Assembly: GCF_002723935.1 (NCBI RefSeq)
Contig: NZ_BEWM01000003.1
Span: 124,001 to 188,000, forward strand
Origin: Gluconobacter cerinus
GTDB taxonomy: Bacteria; Pseudomonadota; Alphaproteobacteria; Acetobacterales; Acetobacteraceae
Direction of reading: 5' to 3'
DNA length: 64,000 bases
The position numbers and the translations under genes are program-made. Below are positions 21,221-24,805 of this stretch, in pieces. The first letter of the stretch is position 1; every line of letters starts with the position of its first letter. Under the pieces are notes generated by a model. It saw only the letters and a list, made by a program, of their open reading frames with translations. It did not search any database and was not told where the DNA came from.

Positions 21221-22330
21221 ATGTCTAAAGCGCCTGTCACGCCTGTTCGTGACGCCGCGGCCCTAGGGCCTTATGCCCTTGCCGTCGACGCAATGGGGGG
21301 AGACAGGGCACCGGATATCGTCCTTGCCGGTCTCGAACTGGCGGCTGATCGTCATCCGACAGCCAGACTGCTCCTGATCGGAGATGAGGCGGTTCTTAAA
21401 CCGGCTCTGGCACGATATCCTAAAGCTGCCCGCATCTGTGACATTCGTCACACTCCAGCCAGCATTTCGATGGAAATGAAGCCGACCGCAGCGCTGCGTG
21501 TTCGTGGCTCTTCCATGCGTCTGGCTATGGAGGCCGTATCTTCTGGTGAGGCCTGTGGTGTTGTGTCTGCTGGAAACAGTGGAGCGATGCTAGCCCTGGC
21601 CAAGATTATCGTCAAAGCGCTTCCTGGAATTTCTCGTCCTGCGATGGTTGCTGTGCAGCCTTCTGCGCGCGGTGACACGGTTATGCTGGATCTGGGCGCT
21701 AACATCGCGTGTGACGCCCGAAATCTGGTAGAATTCGCCGTCATGGGCGAGGCTTTTGCTCAGGCCGCGCTGGGTTTGCCAAAGCCAACAATCGGGCTCC
21801 TGAACGTCGGCTCTGAAGACCTCAAGGGTGACGAAAGGCTGCGTCAGGCTGCCGAGCGCCTTCGGGACAGCGCGCTGGCGGAACAGTTCCACGGCTTTGT
21901 TGAAGGTCATGACATTACCGCCGGGACGACGGATGTTGTCGTGACAGATGGTTTTACGGGAAATGTTGCTCTGAAAACAGGCGAGGGGGCTCTTAAGCTT
22001 GCTTTCGGTCTGTTGAAGCGTGTTTTCGAGACCAATCTGCTGACTCGTATCGGTTATCTGCTGGTTCGCCCCGGGCTGGAGCGAATGCGGGAATGGATTG
22101 ATCCACGGCGTTATAATGGCGCCGTTTTTGTTGGGTTGAATGGCGTTGTTGTGAAGTCTCATGGTGGCGCAGATGGCGAAGCTTTTGCCTCAGCCGTCGA
22201 TATCGCAATGGATGCCGTAACCCATAACCTGAACGACAAGATCCGTGCCCGCCTGGATCAGCTCGGTATGCTTGGAGCTGATGTAGCTTCTGCTGCTGCC
22301 AGCACGGTCGCCCCAGAACCTGTGAGCTGA
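21221..22330 (+). CDS. plsX: Phosphate acyltransferase PlsX
   Basis: A 369-residue enzyme making acyl-phosphate from acyl-ACP, the first step of phospholipid synthesis by the PlsX-PlsY route. The start after a ~17-residue extension shows AVDAMGGDRAPDIVLAGLE. Further motifs are SGNSGAMLALAK, ANIACDARNLVEFAVMG and VTDGFTGNVALKTGEG. It is followed eight bases later by fabH, so the two are co-transcribed. Confidence 0.95.
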   Translation: MSKAPVTPVRDAAALGPYALAVDAMGGDRAPDIVLAGLELAADRHPTARLLLIGDEAVLKPALARYPKAARICDIRHTPASISMEMKPTAALRVRGSSMRLAMEAVSSGEACGVVSAGNSGAMLALAKIIVKALPGISRPAMVAVQPSARGDTVMLDLGANIACDARNLVEFAVMGEAFAQAALGLPKPTIGLLNVGSEDLKGDERLRQAAERLRDSALAEQFHGFVEGHDITAGTTDVVVTDGFTGNVALKTGEGALKLAFGLLKRVFETNLLTRIGYLLVRPGLERMREWIDPRRYNGAVFVGLNGVVVKSHGGADGEAFASAVDIAMDAVTHNLNDKIRARLDQLGMLGADVASAAASTVAPEPVS

Positions 22331-22338
22331 GAAACTTT

Positions 22339-23307
22339 ATGTCCGGTCCCCTTCGTGCCCGCCTGACAGGCGTGGGTGGCTATCTGCCACGCACGATTGT
22401 CACGAATGACGATCTCGCTCAGAAGATCGAAACATCCGACGAGTGGATCCGGGCACGCACGGGCATCACGCAGCGTCACATCGTTTCAGGGGATGAGACG
22501 ACGGCGTCCATGGCCGCCGCCGCGGCGCGTCAGGCTCTTGAGCAGGCCGGTGTAAACGCTGAAGACGTTGACGCCATCATTGTGGCAACCTCAACGCCAG
22601 ATCAGGTTTTTCCCGCTGTGGCGACGCAGGTGCAGGCCCTGCTCGGGATCACCAAAGGGTTCGGCTTCGATATCAGCGCTGCGTGTTCGGGGTTCGTCTA
22701 TGCGTTGGCCTCAGCAAATTCGTTCATTCAATCCGGGTTGGCCAAGAAGGTTCTCGTGATTGGGAGCGAGGTCTTTTCCCGGCTGCTGGATTGGAATGAC
22801 CGCACAACCTGCGTTCTGTTCGGAGACGGCGCTGGTGCTGTACTTCTGGAAGCCGGAACTGAGGAAGGTGAGGGCATTCTCTCGACCCATCTTCATTCTG
22901 ACGGTCGATCAGGGGATATTCTGTACGTTGACGGGGCAGTAGGCTGCGCAGGCACAACTCAACATCTCAAAATGCTTGGGCGAGAAGTGTTTCGTCATGC
23001 GGTTGTTAAGCTGTCTCAGGCTGTTGATGAAGCGCTGGAAGCCAACAACCTGACGGGTCAGGATATTCAGTGGCTTGTACCGCATCAGGCCAATCTCCGT
23101 ATTATTGACGGTATGGCCAAAAAGCTGGCTCTTCCTGCTGATCGTGTTGTGGTGACAGTAGACCGTCACGCTAACACGTCTGCCGCGTCCATCCCGTTGG
23201 CTCTGAATGAAGCCGTCAGAGACGGTCGTATCCAGAAGGGCGATCTTGTTCTGATGGAAGCGCTGGGTGGCGGTTTGACCTGGGGTTCTGCGCTCGTCCG
23301 CATGTGA
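22339..23307 (+). CDS. fabH: 3-oxoacyl-ACP synthase III
   Basis: A 322-residue condensing enzyme that starts fatty-acid synthesis from acetyl-CoA and malonyl-ACP. The triad is Cys116 in SAACSGF, His249 in VPHQANLRI and Asn279 in RHANTSAASIP. The C-terminus GGGLTWGSALVRM is typical. It is in an operon with plsX; ihfA follows after 72 bases. Confidence 0.96.
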   Translation: MSGPLRARLTGVGGYLPRTIVTNDDLAQKIETSDEWIRARTGITQRHIVSGDETTASMAAAAARQALEQAGVNAEDVDAIIVATSTPDQVFPAVATQVQALLGITKGFGFDISAACSGFVYALASANSFIQSGLAKKVLVIGSEVFSRLLDWNDRTTCVLFGDGAGAVLLEAGTEEGEGILSTHLHSDGRSGDILYVDGAVGCAGTTQHLKMLGREVFRHAVVKLSQAVDEALEANNLTGQDIQWLVPHQANLRIIDGMAKKLALPADRVVVTVDRHANTSAASIPLALNEAVRDGRIQKGDLVLMEALGGGLTWGSALVRM

Positions 23308-23379: not shown

Positions 23380-23703
23380 ATGAGTACAGTCACGCGCGCG
23401 AATCTTGTCGAGCACATCTATAGCCGTGTTGGGCTGTCCCGGCACGATTCCTCCATGATTCTGGAAAGTGTGTTGGAAAAAATTTCCTCCACACTTGAAG
23501 CAGGTGAGTCCGTGAAGCTGAGTGGCTTCGGGACCTTCTCTGTTCGCCAGAAGGGAGAACGCATCGGGCGAAATCCCAAGACCGGGGTTGAGGTTCCAAT
23601 CTTGCCTCGCGCTGTCTTGGTGTTTCGGTCTTCGCAGCTTCTGCGGGACCAGATGAATGGCGTGGAAAGCCATGCTGACGATGTGGACGACGCAGATGAT
23701 TGA
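23380..23703 (+). CDS. ihfA: Integration host factor subunit alpha
   Basis: A 107-residue HU/IHF-family protein: TRANLVEHIYSRVGLSRHDS at the N-terminus, SGFGTFSVRQKGERIGRNPK around the DNA-inserting arm, then an acidic C-terminal tail (DDVDDADD). Partner of the beta subunit encoded at 6074. The merR gene overlaps its end by eight bases. Confidence 0.92.
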   Translation: MSTVTRANLVEHIYSRVGLSRHDSSMILESVLEKISSTLEAGESVKLSGFGTFSVRQKGERIGRNPKTGVEVPILPRAVLVFRSSQLLRDQMNGVESHADDVDDADD

Positions 23704-24667
23704 TACCAGCTCGATTAATAGTGCTGATCTCTCCGACGATAATCTGGCTGATTCTGGCGCTGGGAAAATCAAAAAGGGCCCAGACGCTTACAGAACCATC
23801 AGCGAGGTCGCGGAAGAGCTCCATATTCCGCAGCATCGACTGCGTTCGTGGGAAACTCTCTATCCGGGTGTGAAGCCATTTCGTGGGGAGAGTGGGCGCC
23901 GTTATTACAGCCCTGAACACGTCGAGACGCTTCGTCTTATTTCCGATCTTCTCTACGTACAGGGCTATAAGGGCCAAGGCGTTCTGCGAGTTTTAAGAGA
24001 AGAAAAAGCTAGGAAATCTTTAGAAAATCGCACTGCTTCTCCTAAGGCTGAGGAGAATATTGCGAGTGTTCATGCGACGCCTGCTCCAGTTGCGGATCCA
24101 GTTTTAGGAGGCGCTGCGGATGATATTATCTTTCCTGAAGCTCCGGCGGTGCCAGAGATATCTGGTACTCCTGAACTGAGAGAAGAGAATGTCTCCGTTA
24201 GTGAGACGTCAGTGTTTCGCGATGAAGAAGACATATCGCTTTCAGAGTATCGCGAAGCTCTTGAAGTTGGAGAAAAAGCGGATCAAGTGCTTGACGAGTG
24301 TCTGACGGGAAGGACATTCGCCGAAGCCGAAGCCGAAGCCGAAGCCGAAGCCGAAGCCGAAGCCGAAGCCGAAGCCGAAGCCGAAGCCGAAGCCGAAGCC
24401 GAAGCCGAAGCCGAAGCCGAAGCCGAAGCCGAAGCCGAAGCCGAAGCCGAAGCCGAAGCCGAAGCCGAAGCCGAAGCCGAAGCCGAAGCCGAAGCCGAAG
24501 CCCCTTTCTCAATTTATGACACAGAAGAAGTTCTGGTTCTTCAGGATGCGAATCAGCACCTTGCTGCCTCCGTCAGGCATCTGGATGCAGAAAACGAATT
24601 TTTGCGTTCTGAAATGAAGGAAATTCTGGAAGAACTTCAAATTTTGAGAAGTCTTCTTCCGGTATAG
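23696..24667 (+). CDS. MerR-family regulator with a 61-residue Ala-Glu repeat
   Basis: A 323-residue protein. Residues ~25-100 form a MerR winged-helix domain ([20 protein letters not shown], then [20 protein letters not shown]). A MerR gene after ihfA is conserved in many alphaproteobacteria. A ~110-residue acidic linker leads to A(EA)30, encoded by 30 perfect GCCGAA hexamers plus a final GCC. The C-terminal ~50 residues ([20 protein letters not shown] onward) predict a coiled coil. The repeat likely forms one long rigid helix. No metal-binding cysteines of classic MerR are present. The ATG at 23696 overlaps the ihfA stop. The regulatory target is unknown. Confidence 0.85.
24320..24502 (+). 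repeat. Perfect hexanucleotide tandem repeat (GCCGAA)30 + GCC
   Basis: 183 bases without one mismatch, in frame within the merR gene, coding Ala-Glu. Because the unit is six bases, slippage changes the protein by two residues at a time and never shifts the frame. Confidence 0.97.
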
Positions 24668-24728: not shown

Positions 24729-24805
24729 CGGGCAGTAGCGCAGCCTGGTAGCGCACCAGTCTGGGGGACTGGGGGTCGTGGGTTCGAATCCCGCCTGCCC
24801 GACCA
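24729..24805 (+). tRNA. tRNA-Pro (anticodon GGG)
   Basis: Cloverleaf of 77 bases with acceptor CGGGCAG / CTGCCCG, anticodon stem CCAGT / ACTGG around loop CTGGGGG (anticodon GGG, reading CCC), T arm GTGGGTTCGAATCCCGC and encoded CCA. A bidirectional terminator follows. Confidence 0.93.

Follow-up and report, generated by a model that had tools for sequence, protein, structure and literature searches.

The window analysed here is a stretch of 64,000 nucleotides, and within it a MerR-family gene that overlaps ihfA carries an uninterrupted array of the hexamer GCCGAA. We favour the reading, to which a probability of roughly 0.62 can be given, that this tract is a hypermutable, in-frame microsatellite that is mostly tolerated in the acidic, flexible linker of a MerR-family protein coupled to ihfA. 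The array is present in nearly the whole sampled genus, its units are homogenised, and close species differ in copy number, while the frame stays intact and so do the domains on either side. The hypermutability itself is suggested by comparisons of sequences between species.

The tract and its place in the gene

The tract lies at 24320..24502 on the + strand and consists of (GCCGAA)30 plus GCC, with 0 mismatches and with A(EA)30 as its in-frame peptide, the copy number of 30 being the figure of an assembly that is a 49-contig draft. TRF describes it with a period of 6, 30.5 copies, 100% matches and no indels, and reports it as the sole row with a score of at least 50 in the whole window. All 27 overlapping matches of four consecutive GCCGAA units in the genome fall inside the tract, which is also the sole perfect repeat (unit of 2–12, length of at least 24) within the 464,000 of 3,584,657 bases covered by that search (13%, window included). 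A chance origin is excluded, and a tract of this kind is the expected product of slippage. Elsewhere in the source genome, at G000:C3 (L269:10860-11662), a 396-bp unit is present in two tandem copies with a 99% match.

The open frame that bears the tract spans 23657-24667 (+) and encodes 336 amino acids. Its start codon is probably the ATG at 23696, which gives a gene of 23696..24667 that begins within the end of ihfA, with 8 bases in common (ATGATTGA). A 104-aa frame on the opposite strand (24198-24512) was discarded as the mirror of the repeat. Upstream and in the same direction lie a putative plsX-like open reading frame (21221..22330, +), the fabH gene for 3-oxoacyl-ACP synthase III (22339..23307, +; Pfam PF08541/PF08545) and ihfA itself, for integration host factor alpha (23380..23703, +; PF00216; NCBIfam NF001401 with 127.6 bits and a cut-off of 111). 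Downstream, and outside the feature, there is a tRNA-Pro (GGG) gene at 24729..24805 (+), and the neighbours also include a convergent gene of the AI-2E transporter family, as identified by Pfam. Of the 25 genus loci in which ihfA was seen, 21 show an overlap of 1, 8 or 11 bases between ihfA and the MerR gene when the nearest ATG is taken as the start, and this recurrent overlap suggests that the MerR-type protein is translationally coupled to IHF alpha.

Organisation of the protein

Near its N-terminus the protein has a MerR-type winged-helix DNA-binding domain (23795..24001, +), recognised by PF13411 with an E value of 1.1e-16 and a score of 61.1 bits (cut-off 21.6), as well as by AlphaFold and Foldseek; PF00376 scores 27.9 bits, just below its cut-off of 28.2. 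The Foldseek matches of the domain are CarH, GlnR, RacA and NmlR, with a best E value of 5e-4 to MerR-type domains. When the part that precedes the tract was compared with named MerR subfamilies, the scores stayed below the NCBIfam cut-offs for HspR (29.6 of 105 bits), CarH (28.1 of 400) and CueR (19.3 of 147.4). The domain is followed by a variable acidic linker (24002..24319, +), largely predicted to be disordered and with a predicted helix just before the tract, then by the tract itself, and finally by a conserved helix at the C-terminal end (24515..24655, +), which is delimited by AlphaFold and by conserved residues and is presumed to form a coiled coil. Residues L301, L305, L312 and R316 of this last helix are nearly invariant. 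Proteins of the MerR family dimerise through a helix placed after the winged helix, and in the C-terminal part of this protein a helix is predicted in a monomer model.

The AlphaFold model of the window protein, a monomer computed from a 37-sequence alignment with a pTM of 0.37, shows a confident winged helix (pLDDT of about 95), a disordered stretch and the helix before the tract. A helix is also drawn over the (EA)30 tract (residues 206-265), with pLDDT values of 83-92 in blocks of ten and of 66 at the end, and the C-terminal helix (272-318) mostly reaches 94-97. Several statements of the earlier note on this DNA are borne out by these data: a pure (GCCGAA)30 tract in a MerR-family gene, on which the sequence, TRF and PF13411 agree; its location, flanked by the DNA-binding domain on one side and a C-terminal helix on the other, as given by PF13411 and AlphaFold; and the proximity of ihfA, which not only adjoins the gene but overlaps it.

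The proposal that the tract works as a stiff helical spacer has fared less well as a general design. Structure predictors tend to draw runs of alanine and glutamate as helices, and the stable single α-helix of the ER/K type is defined by i,i+4 pairs of opposite charge, while the tract is made of A and E alone and offers no K or R as a partner for its glutamates. Moreover, the (HEA) array of an orthologue in the same genus (G012) is predicted to be disordered, with pLDDT values of 45-53, in a model that keeps the C-terminal helix (23-sequence alignment). For this reason helicity may not be a property common to all the arrays; what they do have in common is their acidic and Ala-rich character. 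A search of PDB sequences with the tract returned low-complexity matches (transcription elongation regulator 1, Mediator subunit 15 and eL29), which are taken as matches of composition only.

Distribution across the genus and the family

The N-terminal part of the protein was found in 173 of the 195 genomes searched, a count that takes in the source genome and every one of the 26 genus members; a protein scan of genome contigs returned no relative. A perfect in-frame array is present in the linker in 25 of the 26 genus genomes, with GCCGAA as the unit in 20 of them, GCAGAA in one (G006, 22 copies) and CATGA(A/T)GCC in four, that is, CATGAAGCC in nine copies in G012 and CATGATGCC in G001, G009 and G022. 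The corresponding peptides are of three types, (EA), (HEA) and (HDA), all of them acidic and containing Ala. The array is absent from the linker of G005 and has 4 copies in G017. Orthologues throughout most of the genus thus have an acidic repeat linker, and this same distribution contradicts the idea of a recent expansion private to one strain.

Runs of (GCNGAA)4 are present in 21 of the 26 genus genomes, at the tract locus in 20 of these 21 and exclusively there in 19. Half of the matches of G019 belong to a second array, (GCCGAA)8, located outside the tract gene (L282, G019:C11:258794 onward), and both matches of G005 lie in another gene. Three consecutive CAYGANGCN units occur only in 4 of the 26 genomes, each time in the tract gene or at a contig end that would fit it. 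The subclade with 9-bp units (L036, L039, L040 and L041, in G012, G001, G009 and G022, respectively) has smaller genomes, of 2.4-2.6 Mb, and its repeats, (HEA) or (HDA), occupy the same linker; such combinations of histidine with acidic residues might serve in metal binding or in a response to acid.

Outside the genus, a perfect linker array was found in none of the 79 orthologues that were scored, each from a different genus of the family, and their longest perfect repeats are 3 x 9 bp, 3 x 6 bp, 3 x 5 bp and 5 x 3 bp; the short peptide (AE)3, unaccompanied by a long array, appears in three of the 79. One further candidate, L052 (G054), has no HTH that a motif search could recognise and was left unscored, and the orthologue set excludes the family genomes G057, G066, G075, G084, G085, G094 and G117 as well as the other families of the class.

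Copy-number change and slippage

The complete arrays of the genus range from 4 to 30 copies, and groups of close species have 16 and 21; 19 and 6; 15, 19 and 10; and 9, 18 and 22 copies, in a comparison that is between species, with one genome per species. The tree behind it is based on 699 alignment columns, taken from the HTH codons and from the 480 bases that precede them, which belong mainly to ihfA, and was built by a quick method, with ten of its 27 inner branches starred and several branches long. Within the tracts of the 20 genomes with GCCGAA, GCC encodes 302 of 311 alanines and GAA 307 of 308 glutamates; outside the arrays, in the 26 orthologues, GCC accounts for 124 of 571 alanines and GAA for 483 of 806 glutamates. 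In nine of the ten deviant cases the codon is the one that closes the tract, at its 3' edge. Taken together, a homogeneous core, a decaying edge and the existence of another, equally pure unit (GCAGAA as opposed to GCCGAA) point to slippage. The earlier note had already attributed the tract to expansion by slippage, given that it shows no synonymous variation, and had stated that the unit keeps the frame; both statements are supported, since close species differ in copy number, deviant codons sit at the edge and the units, of 6 or 9 bp, fall within the frame. DNA hairpins were rejected as the motor of this slippage, because 12 units of either strand, when single-stranded, fold worse than all 200 shuffles.

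The assemblies themselves are informative. Six of the genus stop within the array and a seventh (G023) has a gap of N there, so that 7 of 26 are affected; in 18 of 26, the source genome among them, the array is assembled through. The absent C-terminal halves of the gene in G010, G011, G020 and G024 are found at other contig ends, where repeats are present too. Since the contig breaks and the gap fall inside the array, the real tracts are probably often too long for the reads, and assemblies may give a wrong copy number, yet the existence of the array is no product of assembly.

Length and charge of the linker

In the 19 complete proteins of the genus the linker has a median net charge of -34, which reaches -47 in the window protein; without the tract the median is -19. 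The 18 complete proteins that bear an array range from -20 to -47, and the winged helix has a net charge of +4 in most array-bearing proteins of the genus and of +2 in the window protein. In other genera the linker has a median length of 36 aa and a charge of -5, and it is net negative in 62 of 77 orthologues, two of the 79 (L063 and L092) being cut by contig ends and omitted from the charge count.

Compensation for tract length by the rest of the linker was rejected, as there is no correlation between the two (Spearman rho of 0.05 in 16 complete (EA) orthologues); in the main clade, which comprises 11 of these 16, the rest of the linker measures 105-107 aa and the tract 8 to 51 aa. This result counts against the earlier suggestion of a graded, heritable control device.

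Possible roles of the array

Under the interpretation that we favour, slipped-strand replication would add or remove 6 bp per event (9 bp in one subclade), and each event would lengthen or shorten by Glu-Ala units (or His-Asp/Glu-Ala units) the tether that runs from the winged helix to the C-terminal helix. As the linker is acidic even without the tract and under little constraint, most of these changes would be tolerated. The array would owe its maintenance to its own mutability and to a preference for acidic, Ala-rich residues in that place, while its exact length would not be selected. Regulatory effects, if they exist, would be small and quantitative, and would stem from the added negative charge and the greater length of the tether next to a DNA-binding domain of positive charge. 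What argues against mere tolerance is the persistence of the array at one locus throughout the genus, beyond what is expected of a random tolerated repeat.

The same persistence, together with the strong effect of the array on the charge beside the DNA-binding domain, is the reason why a control device may still be at work. According to this alternative, which we regard as possible but improbable, copy number would determine how long and how charged the linker is and, in this way, the strength of DNA binding or activation, thereby creating graded, heritable diversity under selection; in one version, of electrostatic autoinhibition, the polyanion and DNA would compete for the winged helix, which is positively charged. 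The presence of the array in 25 of 26 genomes, the wide spread of linker charge next to a winged helix that is +4 in most cases, the overlap with ihfA in 21 of 25 loci and the helix predicted for the (EA) tract are all consistent with it. However, neither compensation nor an optimum of length was seen, the (HEA) array is predicted to be disordered, one genome dispenses with the array and another has 4 copies, and similar tracts are found in unrelated proteins of other bacteria. The most far-reaching form of the idea is a genus-wide electrostatic rheostat, in which anywhere between a few and thirty or more extra negative charges would set a graded occupancy of DNA and populations would hold a standing heritable range; we consider it a long shot. 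Such a rheostat would possibly depend on acid, through the protonation of Glu or His, in bacteria that acidify their surroundings.

A different proposal, which seems doubtful to us, is that selection acts on composition, so that an acidic, Ala-rich linker is what is needed (for solubility, to prevent the winged helix from binding DNA non-specifically or to respond to acid), the repeat is an easy mutational route to it and the exact length is unimportant. The linkers of the genus are acidic even without the tract, those of other genera are mostly net negative, and all three peptide types are acidic and contain Ala; the use of acidic and Ala units even in the subclade whose repeat unit differs also hints at selection of this kind. 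Against it, the shorter and less charged linkers of other genera suffice, and Ala/Glu-rich coding sequence makes repeats likely by mutation alone, as with the (AE)3 peptides of three of the 79 orthologues.

A role at the level of DNA, in which the array would be a binding site or a structured DNA or RNA element and the peptide incidental, is very improbable: the tract is indeed pure as DNA, but its units fold worse than their shuffles, and the unit changes between species while the acidic, Ala-containing peptide stays. Finally, it is hardly credible that the tract is an assembly artefact or a one-off expansion in the source strain, as a draft assembly and the breaks or gap in 7 of 26 genomes might suggest, given that the arrays of its relatives contradict this and 18 of 26 are assembled through.

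Comparison with known systems

The hexamer is not exclusive to this gene. At least 117 stretches of (GCCGAA)6 or longer exist in other bacteria, of which 80 loci were analysed and 10, chosen for their long AE-reading tracts, were scanned with Pfam, the frames being the longest open ones, a choice that is unreliable in GC-rich genomes. These ten frames correspond to FtsK (2), an FtsY-type SRP GTPase (1), proteins with an Hpt domain (3, two of them with CheW, kinase and receiver parts) and proteins with no Pfam match (4), which indicates that GCCGAA expands in unrelated proteins. The FtsY-type frame (L144) also matches COX15-CtaA and may result from a fusion or from faulty assembly. In this frame and in one of the FtsK proteins (L210), the hexamer and the peptide are the same as here and the tract is also placed between annotated domains; the proteins differ. 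Among the matches listed, that FtsK gene, of Cupriavidus necator A5-1, has 37 copies of GCCGAA, and Streptomyces sp. NBC_01016 (L150) has 40, in a frame that is not settled.

With regard to the protein, RacA, GlnR and TnrA combine a MerR winged helix with other C-terminal parts and have no sensor domain of the usual kind. Neither these three nor NmlR are known to have a repeat linker such as this one. NmlR also lacks a sensor domain, according to its PDB title, and the DNA-binding domains of RacA, GlnR and NmlR match that of the tract protein by fold.

That the length of an in-frame repeat may serve as a tuning knob has long been proposed, and few clean test cases are known among bacterial transcription regulators. 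At the locus described here, in a genus of harmless bacteria used by industry, proteins that are otherwise alike differ naturally in the number of copies (4 to 30) and in the repeat unit, and the sister genera, which lack the repeat, can serve as controls. Either outcome would be informative: such knobs work, or conspicuous repeats persist throughout a genus without doing much. The tract is also a possible marker for strain typing and a trap for assembly.

A literature search, with most subscription journals outside its coverage, found no publication titles on the tract, and none on a MerR gene with ihfA, plsX and fabH or on hexanucleotide slippage. The accessible portion of an RNAseq paper on G. 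oxydans 621H mentions a MerR gene of unspecified identity. Among acetic acid bacteria, hyper-mutable tandem repeats have been described in five genes of the substrains of Acetobacter pasteurianus IFO 3283 (Azuma et al., 2009, as cited in the available part of PMC4686929), and one of these genes could be the orthologue of the tract gene; a paper on the genome of A. pasteurianus Ab3 counts 45 tandem repeats and, in the portion available, does not name the tract gene. As far as these excerpts go, the likeness lies in tandem repeats within genes of an acetic acid bacterium, which vary between substrains there; the genus is a different one.

A close parallel is AlgP (AlgR3) of Pseudomonas aeruginosa, in which 12-bp units encode KPAA repeats whose number varies between isolates, according to the available excerpts of two sources (PMC9239181, PMC4243448). 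A review seen there in part states that the number of 12-bp repeats has no apparent influence on the mucoidy of the strains examined, and that in two ST395 strains no frame matched wild-type algP (PMC9239181/PMC4243448). The present tract is a pure in-frame array in a coding linker and differs in copy number between close relatives (here between species), and it departs from a phase-variable on/off locus in that its units of 6 or 9 bp stay within the frame. To the extent that the excerpts describe AlgP, both cases involve a tandem repeat that is in frame and lies in a region, predicted to be disordered, of a putative regulator that binds DNA. The repeat of AlgP is basic, C-terminal and made of imperfect units, and its peptides bind DNA, whereas the present tract is acidic, internal and perfect, and belongs to a MerR-type protein.
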